Source: Candidatus Zixiibacteriota bacterium (GTDB lineage: Bacteria > Zixibacteria > MSB-5A5 > UBA10806 > 4484-95). From it: DNA of 35,061 nt. Of this stretch, positions 13,383 to 18,237 are shown in pieces (positions within the stretch are counted from its first letter, which is position 1; each line of letters starts with the position of its first letter). The position numbers were made by a program, and so were the translations under genes. The stretch is taken from NCBI GenBank assembly GCA_012517955.1, contig JAAYTW010000215.1, positions 1 to 35,061 of the forward strand. Reading direction: 5' to 3'. Under the pieces are notes generated by a model. The model was not told the origin of the DNA, did no database searches, and was given only the letters and a program-made list of their open reading frames with translations.

Positions 13383-13456
13383 TGGGCAATACTGGACTTG
13401 AACCAGTGACCTTTCGGATGTGAACCGAACGCTCTAACCAGCTGAGCTAATTGCCC
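13383..13456 (-). tRNA. tRNA-Val (anticodon CAC)
   Basis: The minus strand folds into a full cloverleaf: acceptor GGGCAAT/ATTGCCC, D-stem GCTC/GAGC, anticodon stem TTCGG/CCGAA with loop TTCACAT (anticodon CAC, reading GTG), variable AGGTC, T-stem ACTGG/CCAGT with TTCAAGT, discriminator A. The CCA end is not encoded. It is the second gene of a two-tRNA transcript, seven bases behind the CAT tRNA. Confidence 0.95.
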
Positions 13457-13463
13457 TTCTTAC

Positions 13464-13537
13464 TGGGCCCACCAGGGCTCGAACCTGGGACCCATTGATT
13501 ATGAGTCAATTGCTCTAACCGACTGAGCTATGGGCCC
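13464..13537 (-). tRNA. tRNA with anticodon CAT (elongator Met or Ile2)
   Basis: The minus strand folds into a cloverleaf: acceptor GGGCCCA/TGGGCCC, D-stem GCTC/GAGC, anticodon stem ATTGA/TCAAT with loop CTCATAA, T-stem CCAGG/CCTGG, discriminator A. It is not initiator tRNA, since the first acceptor pair is matched. CAT can be elongator Met or, after lysidine modification by TilS, Ile2. The C4-G69 and C5-G68 pairs resemble TilS determinants described in E. coli, so Ile2 cannot be excluded. The CCA end is not encoded. Confidence 0.93.
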
Positions 13538-14225: not shown

Positions 14226-14696
14226 CTAAAACATCTCCCCTATCCGGGCGGCCACTTTCTCTAATATCGCTTTATCAGATTGCGAAAACGCGGCTGGGAT
14301 GTCCGAATCGATATCAATCTCCCCGACCGGATTTCCTTTCTTATCGAATATCGGCACCACGATTTCGGATCTGGTGGAAAGCGAACAGGCCAAAAAACGC
14401 GGATCGGCGTTGACGTCATCGACGATGATAGTCTGTTTTTCCCTGAATGCCGCGCCGCATATCCCTTTGTCAAGTTCAATTGTCGTGTGCGGCGAGGGCT
14501 CTCCCCTATATGGCCCCAATTTCAATACTCCGGATTCATATAGATATATTCCGGTCCAAGTAAAATGCTTGAAATTGGCCGCTAAAAGCGCCACTACGCC
14601 ATCGAGCGCGTTCCGCATGTTTCGGGAGGTTTTTAAAAAATCATCGATTAATCCTAAAAGTCGAGATTCACCGATAGTAGGCATGTATTCATCCAT
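14226..14696 (-). CDS. GAF-domain protein, free methionine-R-sulfoxide reductase-like
   Basis: The protein is a single GAF domain (156 residues from the ATG at 14696, which has AAGGA eight bases upstream; the longer frame to 14771 overlaps the upstream gene and lacks support). It resembles fRMsr/MsrC, which reduces free methionine-R-sulfoxide. The motifs GICGAAF (Cys80) and LACSLSTRSEIVVPI (Cys104) match two of the three conserved cysteines, including the catalytic position; the third, before the ICG loop, is replaced in the segment GEPSPHTT. IDIDSD near the C-terminus is also typical. It follows the UroD-like gene by 11 bases, probably cotranscribed. Activity is plausible with a two-Cys mechanism; a signalling GAF is the alternative. 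Confidence 0.75.
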   Translation of the reverse strand: MDEYMPTIGESRLLGLIDDFLKTSRNMRNALDGVVALLAANFKHFTWTGIYLYESGVLKLGPYRGEPSPHTTIELDKGICGAAFREKQTIIVDDVNADPRFLACSLSTRSEIVVPIFDKKGNPVGEIDIDSDIPAAFSQSDKAILEKVAARIGEMF

Positions 14697-14707
14697 AATA
14701 ATATTCC

Positions 14708-15700
14708 TTAATAAACGGCCTCGCGTAAAGCCATGATATTGGCTTCTGGAGTACCCAATTTTAATGAGCATCCCGGACCAACCAACAATGGATGGTCACC
14801 AGCATCAGCGATAGATTCTTTCACTTGCCGGCGGACATCCTCAGGGGTTCCGGTAAGCAGCGAAGTCAGATGATCGGCGCCGCCCAAAAATACCTGGTTG
14901 AATATCTTATCGGCCTGGGCGAAATCAAGATTCCCTTCCTCGAATTTATTCCAGCTTAATATTTCAACAGGATAATGTTTAAAAAGCGGCAACATATTGT
15001 AGCGCCGGCAGACATGCAAAATATTAAATTTCGCCGGTCGGGCGGCTCGAAGAATCCGAAGGTCATAAGGCTGGCCGAATTCCAGATATTGCTCTTCGGT
15101 GATATTATCGCGGGTAGCCCATTCAGTAGTCGCGAAAAAAATACCGCTGATTCCGATACGAAGCAACTCATCGACATAATCCTCAAGCGTGGCGGTAATC
15201 GCTTCCAAGGCGCTTTCCAAATTTTTCGGGGAATTGAGCAGTTTTTTAAACAGTTCATCGGAGCCGGTAAGATCAGCGGCAATCGATAAAGGCGAAAACA
15301 CGGTTTGGAAAAAATCGATTCTATCGTCAAGCTGACGTGAAATCAAATCGGTTGCTTTTAATTGTTCGCCAAAGGCCGCATCGCCAATATCAAGAGGCTT
15401 TATTGCCAGCCAATCCTGAGCCGATTTTACCGGCGCATATTCGAGAACCGGTTTTTCATCCGGTTTGCCTGAATGCTTGAATTTGGCGCCCCAGCCCTCA
15501 ATATAGTACGAAGATCGAGGATTTATTTTGATGAAATCCCAGCTATATTTGTTTTGGTATTCTAATGTGGCTTTGGCAAGTTTATCGGCGGACCATTCAT
15601 GGTCATAAAAATGCTGCCAACAACTGACAGGCGGCCGGTCGATTTCCCGACCATCCATCAATCTTTCGACTCTTTCTTTCGGTGAGAATTTATCTTCCAC
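14708..15700 (-). CDS. Uroporphyrinogen decarboxylase-superfamily protein, MtaA/MtbA-like
   Basis: This 330-residue protein has the UroD (beta/alpha)8 fold pattern (MDGREIDRPPVSCWQHFYDH, FFQTVFSPLSIAADL, GISGIFFATTEWATRD, NILHVCRRYNMLPLF). It also has His229-x-Cys231 and Cys311 (VGPGCSLKLGTPEANI), the H-x-C...C arrangement that binds zinc in the corrinoid:thiol methyltransferases MtaA and MtbA. True HemE lacks it. I therefore read it as a methyltransferase-type member rather than a heme enzyme. The start is a GTG at 15700 with GGAG seven bases before it. A good promoter lies just upstream, and the methionine synthase-like gene is the previous cistron. The methyl donor and acceptor cannot be read from sequence. 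Confidence 0.82.
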   Translation of the reverse strand: MEDKFSPKERVERLMDGREIDRPPVSCWQHFYDHEWSADKLAKATLEYQNKYSWDFIKINPRSSYYIEGWGAKFKHSGKPDEKPVLEYAPVKSAQDWLAIKPLDIGDAAFGEQLKATDLISRQLDDRIDFFQTVFSPLSIAADLTGSDELFKKLLNSPKNLESALEAITATLEDYVDELLRIGISGIFFATTEWATRDNITEEQYLEFGQPYDLRILRAARPAKFNILHVCRRYNMLPLFKHYPVEILSWNKFEEGNLDFAQADKIFNQVFLGGADHLTSLLTGTPEDVRRQVKESIADAGDHPLLVGPGCSLKLGTPEANIMALREAVY

Positions 15701-15746
15701 TCGTTTTCTCCAAAATTAAATGTATAATAACATATACTCCAAGCAG

Positions 15747-15775
15747 ATATTATCCGCGCCAAAGTATAATGTCAA
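15747..15775 (-). promoter_or_regulatory. Promoter for the UroD-like / GAF pair
   Basis: On the minus strand a perfect TTGACA (15775-15770) is followed after 17 bases by TAATAT (15752-15747). The start would be near 15740, leaving a leader of about 40 bases to the GTG at 15700. Confidence 0.65.
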
Positions 15776-15847
15776 TCTAAATTATTGCAGGTTAACGGAT
15801 TGTGAAATTAAGCACAAGGTTTCCAATGGGCTGGGTGATATTTAAGG

Positions 15848-17692
15848 CTAATGATTGATATACTTGATTATATTCATCGCGACTTCGAACTTGCCGAACG
15901 ATGGCATCAAGTATAGTCCATTAATATAGCCTTTGGATTTTTCTATCAACTCCAAAGCGATTTCCTGGCCTATCGATGCTGACTTTTCGCCGGCGTTTTT
16001 CATTCTTTCGAGCAGTTTATTAGGTATGGTAATTCCCGGCACCTCATTATGTAAAAATTCGGCGTGCTTAAAACTCATTAATGGCAGGATTCCCAGCACC
16101 ACGGGAAGATTATATTTGGCGATATCATCCACGCTTTGCTTAATTATGTCGATATCGAACAACGGCTGCGTAAAAACATACTGACCGCCGGCCGCGGCTT
16201 TCTGTTGAAGGCGGGATAATTCCAACCGATAATCCGGAGCAGTCGGATTAAAGGCGACGCCGATAGAAAAATTGGTCGGCTTACCAATCGCGTTTCCAAA
16301 AAAGTCGCTTCCCGAATTCAACTTTTGGATAACGTTTACAAGCCCAATCGAATCGACATCGTAAACCGCGGTCGCTTGAGGATAATCGCCCAAGGATGGC
16401 GGATCGCCGGTCAAGGCGAGTATGTCTTTGACTCCCATGGCGTGGGCTCCTAACAAATCGGCCTGAAGCCCCATCAGATTGCGGTCTCTGGTTGTAAAAT
16501 GCAGTATTATATCAATATCGACATATCGTTTAATCAAATAAGCCAGCGCCAGACAAGACATCTTTACGCGGGCCAATGGGGAATCGGCGATATTCACCGC
16601 GTCCGCCCCGATTTCCTTTAATTCGCCGGCCACTTTAATCAACTTTTCTGGATTGGAACCTTTCGGGGGATCCAGTTCAACTGAGACAACAAAATCATGA
16701 GTCAGCTTTTCTAAAAATGGCGAAATGGTCGGGATTTTTTTTTCGTCTTTTACCGCGATTATGTTCATTCGATCCCTCGCGGCATAGCCGCCGATTTTTT
16801 CGGGCATCGGCTTAATATCTTTAAGGGCCTTGCTGATAGCGGCGATATGGTCCGGTGTTGTACCGCAACAGCCTCCGATAATTGTGGCGCCCGCCTCGAC
16901 AAATTTACGGGCATATTCGGCCAGATAATCGGGAGAAGAAAAATATACGAAGCGGCCGTTATATAATCTTGGCAATCCGGCATTCGGCTGAGCCGATACG
17001 TAAGTTGTTCCAAATTCACAAAGTATCTGAATCACCTCAAGCATCATTTGAGGCCCTACTGAACAATTCGCTCCAATCACGTCAACGCCCAAAGGCACCA
17101 AATGGGAGGCCACATCTTCCGGCCTATTACCGAGTAGAGTCATCCCTTCAGCGGTGAATGTCATTTGGGCGACAATAGGTAGATCGCAGGTTTTTTTAAT
17201 GATTCCTACAATCAATTCCATTTCCTCGAGATTGGCTATAGTTTCGACCATGAACAAATCGACGCCCCCCTCAAGGAGCGATTCGACCTGTTCGCGAAAG
17301 ATATCCTTTGCCGCCGCCTTAAGAATTTTGCCGTAGGGTTCAAGTTGTTTACCCAACGGACCAATCGAGCCGGCGATATAAATATCCTTGCCGATAATAT
17401 CTCGGGCTTCGCGGGCGATTCTGGCGGCTTTGATATTTATCTCGCGGACTTTATCCTCAAGCCCATATCCGGAAAGGCGAACCGAATTGGCGCCGAACGT
17501 ATTGGTTTCGATTATTTCCGCCCCCGCTTCAATATACTCGCGATGAATCTGATTAATCAATTCTGGTTTAGATAAATTCAACTCATCAAATGACCTCTCA
17601 TAAGATATGCCTTTTTGATTGAGGTAAGTCCCCATCGCCCCGTCGCAAATAATCACGCCCTGCTTTAATCTCGATAAAAAAGAATATTCCAT
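15848..17692 (-). CDS. Bifunctional homocysteine S-methyltransferase / 5,10-methylenetetrahydrofolate reductase
   Basis: The 614-residue protein joins two enzymes. Residues 1-290 are a homocysteine S-methyltransferase domain with CDGAMGTYL, ETNTFGANS, and the zinc-binding cysteines Cys210 (GANCSVGP) and Cys275-Cys276 (GGCCGTTPDH). About 325-614 is an FAD-linked MTHFR domain (VVSVELDPPKGSN, HFTTRDRN, DILALTGDPP, GGQYVFTQPLFD). This is the layout of Bacillus YitJ. Unlike MetH it has no pterin-binding, cobalamin-binding or activation domain, so if it feeds methyl groups from methyl-tetrahydrofolate to homocysteine it needs another route or a separate corrinoid protein. No clear ribosome site precedes the ATG at 17692. 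It lies between a GGDEF-like gene and the UroD-like gene. Confidence 0.93.
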   Translation of the reverse strand: MEYSFLSRLKQGVIICDGAMGTYLNQKGISYERSFDELNLSKPELINQIHREYIEAGAEIIETNTFGANSVRLSGYGLEDKVREINIKAARIAREARDIIGKDIYIAGSIGPLGKQLEPYGKILKAAAKDIFREQVESLLEGGVDLFMVETIANLEEMELIVGIIKKTCDLPIVAQMTFTAEGMTLLGNRPEDVASHLVPLGVDVIGANCSVGPQMMLEVIQILCEFGTTYVSAQPNAGLPRLYNGRFVYFSSPDYLAEYARKFVEAGATIIGGCCGTTPDHIAAISKALKDIKPMPEKIGGYAARDRMNIIAVKDEKKIPTISPFLEKLTHDFVVSVELDPPKGSNPEKLIKVAGELKEIGADAVNIADSPLARVKMSCLALAYLIKRYVDIDIILHFTTRDRNLMGLQADLLGAHAMGVKDILALTGDPPSLGDYPQATAVYDVDSIGLVNVIQKLNSGSDFFGNAIGKPTNFSIGVAFNPTAPDYRLELSRLQQKAAAGGQYVFTQPLFDIDIIKQSVDDIAKYNLPVVLGILPLMSFKHAEFLHNEVPGITIPNKLLERMKNAGEKSASIGQEIALELIEKSKGYINGLYLMPSFGKFEVAMNIIKYINH

Positions 17693-17757: not shown

Positions 17758-18237
17758 CTATGCGGTTAAAGCCGACCGGATATTATCCAGCACCGATGAT
17801 GGGGTCGCGTTATCGGTCGGGAAACAATTCGAAACGATTTCCACTTTCCAATTCTTCGGGGAGTTGATTATCTCGTGCAGAAAATAACGAATACTCTCCT
17901 GCAAGCGTCTCTCAACGGCAGTCGCCCCTTCGGCGGGGGTATCTACTAATAGGATACATATTTTGCCTTTATTGAAACCGCTGATTATATCGGTTTGGCG
18001 TATAGAAATTCTTATGTGGTGGCGAAGCTTTCGATAAAAATCATTTCCGGAACGGGAATTGTCAAATTCTATATTTTTAAGATGCGATGTGTCAACTATT
18101 AGATATGAAAGAAAATCAAGGTATCTTTGCGCCCGCTTCAATTCCTGGCTGGTTCTCGACATAAAATTTTCAGTCGAATTATACAACCTATCGAGAATTT
18201 CTATTTCTAAATCCATACCTTCAACTTCGCCAAGCAT
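17758..18237 (-). CDS. Degenerate GGDEF-like domain protein
   Basis: A 159-residue single-domain protein. The segment IRQTDIISGFNKGKICILLV followed by a helix AVERRLQESI has the spacing and flanking pattern of a GGDEF diguanylate cyclase (R..D.........GGDEF...LLP......A......L), but the signature residues are replaced (NKGKI where GGDEF would be). If the reading is right, it cannot make c-di-GMP and could only bind a partner or nucleotide. The start is either 18237 or the ATG at 18216; neither has a strong ribosome site. It follows the NtrC-type regulator gene with a 217-base gap containing a sigma-54-like sequence. Identification rests on pattern, so moderate. Confidence 0.55.
   Translation of the reverse strand: MLGEVEGMDLEIEILDRLYNSTENFMSRTSQELKRAQRYLDFLSYLIVDTSHLKNIEFDNSRSGNDFYRKLRHHIRISIRQTDIISGFNKGKICILLVDTPAEGATAVERRLQESIRYFLHEIINSPKNWKVEIVSNCFPTDNATPSSVLDNIRSALTA

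Follow-up and report, generated by a model that had tools for sequence, protein, structure and literature searches.

How an uncultured member of the Zixibacteria makes and maintains its methionine is the question raised by three consecutive genes on contig JAAYTW010000215.1 of Candidatus Zixiibacteriota bacterium (assembly GCA_012517955.1), which was analyzed over positions 1 to 35,061 (the window, 35,061 nucleotides, nt). The genes code for a fusion of a homocysteine (Hcy) methyltransferase with a methylenetetrahydrofolate reductase (MTHFR), a protein with the fold of uroporphyrinogen decarboxylase (UroD), and a relative of free methionine-R-sulfoxide reductase (fRMsr). An earlier note on this DNA had grouped them under a single methionine theme, as a possible synthesis route that dispenses with MetH and has its own repair step. 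Our analysis argues for a different arrangement: the locus probably holds two adjacent methionine modules, one in which the MTHFR of the fusion would feed a split MetE encoded on other contigs, and a separate one formed by the UroD-like and fRMsr genes. The two modules would have been brought side by side in the order to which this genome belongs. All three open reading frames (ORFs) described in the note are present, on the minus strand:

15848..17692, minus strand: fusion enzyme of 614 amino acids, YitJ family (PF02574, PF02219 and NF006396 matches)
16823..17653, minus strand: Hcy methyltransferase domain (PF02574) of the fusion (profile match)
15908..16699, minus strand: MTHFR domain (PF02219) of the fusion (profile match)
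14708..15700, minus strand: UroD-fold, MtaA-like putative zinc thiol methyltransferase of 330 amino acids with a GTG start (PF01208, AlphaFold2 model)
15008..15016, minus strand: His229-x-Cys231 zinc motif of the UroD-like protein (residue conservation)
14768..14770, minus strand: Cys311, third zinc ligand of the UroD-like protein (residue conservation)
14226..14696, minus strand: fRMsr gene (likely start at 14696; ORF open from 14771)

The fusion enzyme

The fusion scored 269 bits against PF02574 at residues 14-290, 123 bits against PF02219 at residues 332-594 and 752 bits against NF006396 (cut-off 453), the last match spanning residues 4-613. Its zinc cysteines C210, C275 and C276 were invariant in an alignment of 20 fusions, 4 MetH proteins, 10 proteins from the MttB cluster of other Zixibacteria (see below) and 4 lone Hcy proteins. 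The MTHFR domain carries E339, D430 and Q509, which we equate with active-site residues of Escherichia coli MetF. The profile matches and the retained cysteines confirm the domains assigned in the note, a reductase and a zinc site for homocysteine, and a domain profile search of the 614 residues bore out its claim that a cobalamin domain is absent. Judged by its sequence, the fusion is a typical representative of the bifunctional homocysteine S-methyltransferase/MTHFR enzymes.

The entire architecture is that of the PRK08645/NF006396 fusions such as YitJ (SamT) of Bacillus subtilis, with a score above the family cut-off; we take YitJ to be an NF006396 member. The locus differs from that type in the absence of a SAM riboswitch or other Rfam match nearby (two tRNAs were the sole matches in the window at the gathering threshold), and in its probable partner synthase, a split MetE. 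The fusion is the single match to PF02574 and the single match to PF02219 in the genome; it would be the only MTHFR of the cell and would make 5-methyl-tetrahydrofolate (5-methyl-THF).

A split MetE as the probable methionine synthase

A profile search for PF02607, the cap domain of MetH and of MtaC-type corrinoid proteins, found no match in the genome, a 2.69-Mb assembly of 400 contigs that is 95.5% complete and of which the window is one contig (C16); the same search matched in 9 of 14 known genomes used as a control. On this point the claim that the route is not of the MetH type stands. MetH requires a cobalamin-binding module, for which neither the fusion nor the PF02607 search provides a candidate. 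Split MetH, or MtgBCDE, likewise distributes synthase modules over separate genes and includes an Hcy module, but needs a corrinoid protein, which this genome lacks (PMC12478193).

A search with PF01717 led to a pair of short MetE-type ORFs on contigs C202 and C113. The catalytic ORF scored 276 bits against PF01717 and has the zinc residues H218, C220, E242 and C303, all four of which are unchanged in each of the 12 catalytic partners. The second ORF scored higher against the N-terminal model PF08267 than against PF01717 (107.9 versus 72.6 bits). The N-terminal partners deviate at three of the zinc-ligand positions: all 13 carry Tyr at one and Asp at another, and 7 of the 13 have Phe or Tyr at the third, a pattern that matches the disabled N-terminal barrel of MetE (PMC539065).

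Split MetE of the PF1268/PF1269 type has been described as mainly archaeal, with Sulfobacillus as the one bacterium named; its catalytic part has at most 400 amino acids and at least 200 bits to PF1269 in phmmer, and its partner favors Meth_synt_1 over Meth_synt_2 (Price et al., 2021, PMC7857596). Against NF003317, used as a proxy for PF1269, the catalytic component scored 388.5 bits in our genome (cut-off 406) and 421.9 bits in the genome RBG-1, with lengths of 332 and 321 amino acids. By sequence, our pair agrees with most, but not all, of the description by Price et al. (PMC7857596). The two have in common a pair of adjacent ORFs of less than 400 amino acids and a zinc-intact catalytic barrel combined with a zinc-less folate-type barrel; they differ in that the genes studied here belong to a bacterial phylum and often form an operon-like series together with the fusion.

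The split-MetE pair thus appears as the evident methionine synthase of the genome, so that the three window genes lose the role of a methionine synthase route which the note had given them. In the proposed reaction, the zinc- and Hcy-binding catalytic barrel, together with the separate folate-type barrel, would methylate homocysteine with 5-methyl-THF.

The ends of C113 and C202 (loci L006 and L007) overlap inside the split-MetE partner gene, as if two strains had been binned together. Contig C202 has other putative genes as well, which resemble acyl-CoA dehydrogenases and, in one ORF, a B12-binding mutase.

Co-occurrence and gene order of fusion and split MetE

We compared 78 genomes of the class (G000 to G077, our own counted in), of which nine (G000 to G008) form the order of our genome and one (G024, locus L047) is RBG-1; a stricter subset comprises 60 genomes with a completeness of at least 90% and a contamination of at most 5%. 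Matches were found in 51 of the 78 genomes for the UroD-like family, 70 for PF02574, 49 for PF02607, 29 for PF01717, 44 for PF02219 and 78 for PF01053. Because the genomes are related by descent, the Fisher p-values for co-occurrence are only descriptive and overstate independence.

Fusion and split MetE were both present in 24 genomes, the fusion only in 8, split MetE only in 2 and neither in 44 (n = 78; p = 3e-11); in the 60 better genomes the corresponding counts were 17, 5, 0 and 38. For three of the 32 fusion genomes the assignment was manual: in G025 the Hcy and MTHFR parts lie on different contigs, in G026 they are two ORFs, and in G014 the piece is located at the edge of a contig. Split MetE was called from at least two PF01717 matches, with G010 excluded for its full-length MetE of 702 amino acids; G020 and G033 have one weak match each. 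Stand-alone corrinoid proteins for the co-occurrence analysis were picked out by eye from the PF02607 results.

In 13 genomes (families f3, f6, f7 and f14) the fusion lies at most 1.5 kb from MetE on the same strand, and where adjacent the genes follow the order MetE-N, MetE-C, fusion; the ORF filter of this survey removed the catalytic ORF in L175 and L179. In RBG-1, the split-MetE pair is intact on a single contig, 3.7 kb from the fusion, and split MetE, fusion, UroD-like and fRMsr genes are all found inside about 10 kb. The gene for serine hydroxymethyltransferase, which produces the MTHFR substrate, adjoins the fusion in G063 and G046. Stand-alone MTHFR of the MetF type was identified in 11 of the 17 MetH genomes. 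Given the co-occurrence and adjacency, together with the domain content, the fusion would most likely supply methyl-THF to split MetE.

Several observations weigh against this reading. Eight of the 32 fusion genomes have no split MetE, five of them having MetH (G002, G005, G007, G037 and G055), and G006 has the fusion with neither PF01717 nor PF02607 matches. The folate-barrel partner of RBG-1 favors the catalytic Pfam model (146 versus 99 bits). In our own genome the split MetE spans two contigs, the ends of which overlap inexactly, over 290 bp at 97.9%. Finally, a search of the genome for MetX-type enzymes, which did not extend to MetA, gave no match, so that the homocysteine supply can only be presumed. 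As a marker of prototrophy across the class, MetX gave a convincing match only in G074, a search that is uninformative because the control genomes also stayed below the cut-off.

The Hcy domain of the fusion

The Hcy domain of the fusion has its nearest match in the MetH Hcy module (8ssc, E 6e-59), followed by BHMT and by the homocysteine methyltransferase 5dml (E 1e-21). In a tree of 38 Hcy domains, which has several weak forks and one very long row, the 20 fusions form a group that also takes in two lone Hcy proteins and leaves out MetH and the Hcy proteins of the MttB cluster. The domain keeps its zinc site, but the genome has no cobalamin partner for it; its probable role is therefore in a side reaction, for example the homocysteine methylation dependent on S-adenosylmethionine (AdoMet) that has been assigned to YitJ/SamT.

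A more specific proposal, compatible with the fusion feeding split MetE, is that the domain is an AdoMet/S-methylmethionine homocysteine methyltransferase for salvage or for repair of racemised AdoMet. It draws on the absence of a corrinoid partner and on the domain architecture shared with SamT, which presumably belongs to the same family NF006396. The B. subtilis protein, likewise an MTHFR and homocysteine methyltransferase fusion, has been proposed to methylate homocysteine from (R,S)-AdoMet (PMC6302742). Against the proposal stand the greater similarity of the domain to the MetH module than to the 5dml type, and the score of the fusion against NF007020, which at 131 bits is below the cut-off of 215. 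We regard it as possible and hold it at modest confidence, since the domain sequence leans towards the MetH type.

The UroD-like protein

The UroD-like protein matched PF01208 with 106 bits and is the single such match in the genome. The zinc motif of the earlier note, H229, C231 and C311, was exact in its numbering, and all 49 class members keep it unchanged; at 57 loci outside the class, these residues are retained in 57, 57 and 56 cases. The AlphaFold2 model, built on a 34-sequence alignment, has a pLDDT of 95.2. Its top solved structural match is MtaA of M. mazei (4ay7; Z 34.0, root mean square deviation 2.4, 314 aligned residues, 18% identity), followed by HemE (Z about 31-32) and MetE (Z about 20-21), with MetH folds also among the matches listed.

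The scores against TIGR01463 (71.2 bits, cut-off 235.4) and NF004889 (92.2 bits, cut-off 244) are well under these MtaA family cut-offs, for which reason we call the protein, from its sequence, MtaA-like rather than MtaA. It shares the UroD fold and the HxC...C zinc motif with MtaA/MtbA (4ay7) and with the bacterial Mlps (PMC10418091), from which it differs in its low identity to 4ay7, in the location of its gene outside a corrinoid cluster and in the absence of a PF02607 partner from the genome. For a different cluster, one that does contain a corrinoid protein, bacterial MtaA-like proteins have been linked to the salvage of selenium or methionine (PMC10418091). The protein would activate a thiol at its zinc and transfer a methyl group.

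As the sole PF01208 protein of the genome, it could be thought to be the uroporphyrinogen decarboxylase HemE of the cell. This is very improbable and was rejected: the MtaA-type model matched at E 3e-26 and the HemE model did not at E 1e-3, and the HxC...C zinc motif is invariant.

It is also unlikely that the protein itself acts as a methionine synthase, which would be one more "core" type with zinc-activated homocysteine. The invariant motif and a fold akin to the catalytic barrel of MetE would suit such a role, as would its presence in five of the eight genomes without a known synthase domain (G035, G040, G060, G068 and G072), all except G060 with strong PF01053 enzymes. On the other hand, the gene is equally frequent where MetH or split MetE is present, three genomes (G019, G027 and G038) have neither a known synthase nor the UroD-like gene, MtaA is nearer in fold than MetE (Z 34 versus about 21), and no MetX match of convincing score was found in those genomes. 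We rejected the protein as the missing synthase, its frequency of 5/6 versus 42/54 in the others of the 60 better genomes being no enrichment worth claiming.

The five genomes are at least 95% complete and have no PF02574, PF01717, MTHFR, or MetH- or cluster-type corrinoid protein; they are either auxotrophs or carriers of an unrecognised synthase. In another set of genomes (G003, G043, G048, G050, G060, G066, G073 and G075) PF01053 matches were only weak (best E 1e-12 to 1e-7), an apparent loss of transsulfuration or sulfhydrylation enzymes, nearly all other genomes having strong matches.

A conserved pair of UroD-like and fRMsr genes

The nearest solved relative of the third gene product is Ta0848 (E 9e-25), a characterised free Met-R-O reductase in which C60 and C84 are essential (TafRMsr, PMC6211008). 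These align to C105 and C129 of the window protein, which are invariant in 40 rows but for one X. By the two cysteines and the overall sequence, it is predicted to be a GAF-fold type II fRMsr, in line with the fRMsr-like GAF protein of the note, and it would reduce free Met-R-sulfoxide to methionine. The start is probably the ATG at 14696, 11 nt past the UroD-like stop, rather than 14771, the homologues being mostly about 155 amino acids long.

Unlike TafRMsr, the protein is coupled to the UroD-like gene. Of 51 loci from 50 relatives, 39 have the two genes close together on one strand, and in 37 the gap does not exceed 130 nt; negative gaps result partly from over-long ORF starts, and some contigs end early (e.g., G014 and G026). 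In RBG-1 they are separated by a thioredoxin-fold ORF, identified only there, and another ORF. Outside the class, fRMsr was next to the UroD-like gene at none of the 57 loci (sorted out of 80 by record title, two records from the FCB group and Ignavibacterium being counted with the Zixibacteria). ORF clustering in the 80 loci showed that the neighbors vary by lineage and gave no clue to the UroD-like function. At seven Chloroflexi loci (L098, L109, L129, L130, L135, L142 and L165) the same two genes follow the UroD-like gene, presumably a RibF-like ORF (cluster 3) and a tRNA synthetase-like ORF (cluster 2). Since the zinc residues are kept but the fRMsr adjacency is absent outside the class, the sequences indicate a single family of UroD-like enzymes, in which the zinc site stays constant and the genomic partner changes with the lineage.

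The order fusion, UroD-like, fRMsr is intact in our genome and in G001, G004, G005 and G006, that is in 5 of the 9 genomes of the order, and the fusion is adjacent to the UroD-like gene also in G024 and G026. In G008, the UroD-like and fRMsr genes are on a contig other than that of the fusion, and G002 and G003 have no UroD-like gene. In G007, assembled as one contig, the UroD-like gene is broken, with the N-terminal part beside the fusion and the C-terminal part beside fRMsr at distant sites (L071 and L088), which reflects either an inversion with its breakpoint within the gene or an assembly error.

Across the 78 genomes, UroD-like gene and fusion were both present in 22, the UroD-like gene only in 29, the fusion only in 10 and neither in 17 (p = 0.64), no link beyond chance; for split MetE the counts were 17, 34, 9 and 18 (p = 1.0). 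We therefore rejected the UroD-like protein as a partner of either.

These data bear on the earlier model, in which the three genes form a non-MetH route with the UroD-like protein passing a methyl group to the Hcy domain of the fusion. Their adjacency and its recurrence in the genomes just listed speak for it. Beside the chance-level co-occurrence, however, the genome has a split MetE and no methyl carrier of the MtaC or MetH corrinoid type, and at the 57 outside loci fRMsr is never adjacent and an Hcy-type ORF is near the UroD-like gene only in L118, about 4.7 kb away. Such a route is quite improbable. Of the proposed theme, the methionine link holds for fusion and fRMsr, as in the 10-kb group of RBG-1; the UroD-like gene is uncoupled from the fusion and lies beside it in few lineages. 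We favor two modules, in which the UroD-like and fRMsr genes would form a class-conserved pair separate from the fusion.

Literature searches, at the level of search listings, surfaced no prior description of this pair, which is new as far as these listings go. One speculative reading, to which we attach little probability, is an unrecognised module for thiol methylation and methionine salvage, with a corrinoid-free zinc methyltransferase acting on homocysteine or another thiol and fRMsr keeping the product reduced.

Other features of the locus and of related genomes

Three further features flank or separate the genes, and a tandem pair of tRNA genes (13383-13537, minus strand) lies directly downstream of the cluster:

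15701..15847, no strand: gap of 147 nt from the fusion stop to the UroD-like start, containing a promoter-like site
15775-15747, minus strand: promoter-like site TTGACA-17-TAATAT in this gap (motif scan)
17758..18237, minus strand: GGDEF-like ORF upstream of the fusion, also a neighbor of the cluster in G001, G004, G005 and G006

The totals from promoter and terminator scans of the region were close to the shuffled average (14 promoter-like sites versus 11.1, standard deviation 3.3, in shuffled sequence), so the TTGACA-17-TAATAT site alone is no evidence.

Seven loci from other Zixibacteria (L194, L195, L196, L197, L198, L199 and L209) contain a cluster of four genes. It joins a methyltransferase of the MttB family (PF06253) and a lone Hcy methyltransferase with a MetH-activation-like protein (PF02965) and a corrinoid protein similar to MtgC; L193 has the same genes minus the activation gene. 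The cluster is a gene set related to MtgBCDE (PMC12478193) and was found in these other Zixibacteria instead of our genome. Several cluster genomes have no MTHFR, which suggests that methionine may there be made from a quaternary amine without folate.

Implications

The fusion, split MetE, fRMsr and the MtaA-like fold are each already known. For the run of fusion and split MetE in a bacterial phylum, no prior description surfaced in the literature searches, again at the level of search listings, and within that scope the run is new. It would give the uncultured Zixibacteria a concrete methionine route, a fused MTHFR with a split MetE, in an arrangement previously found mainly in archaea. It also sharpens an old puzzle, the retention of a MetH-type Hcy domain on MTHFR where the cobalamin module is missing. 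If the thiol-methylation reading of the UroD-like and fRMsr pair were true, the UroD-like protein would act as methionine synthase in lineages without another synthase. The occurrence of a UroD-like family with an invariant zinc site across Zixibacteria, Chloroflexi and other phyla, coupled to fRMsr in one class, poses a testable question.

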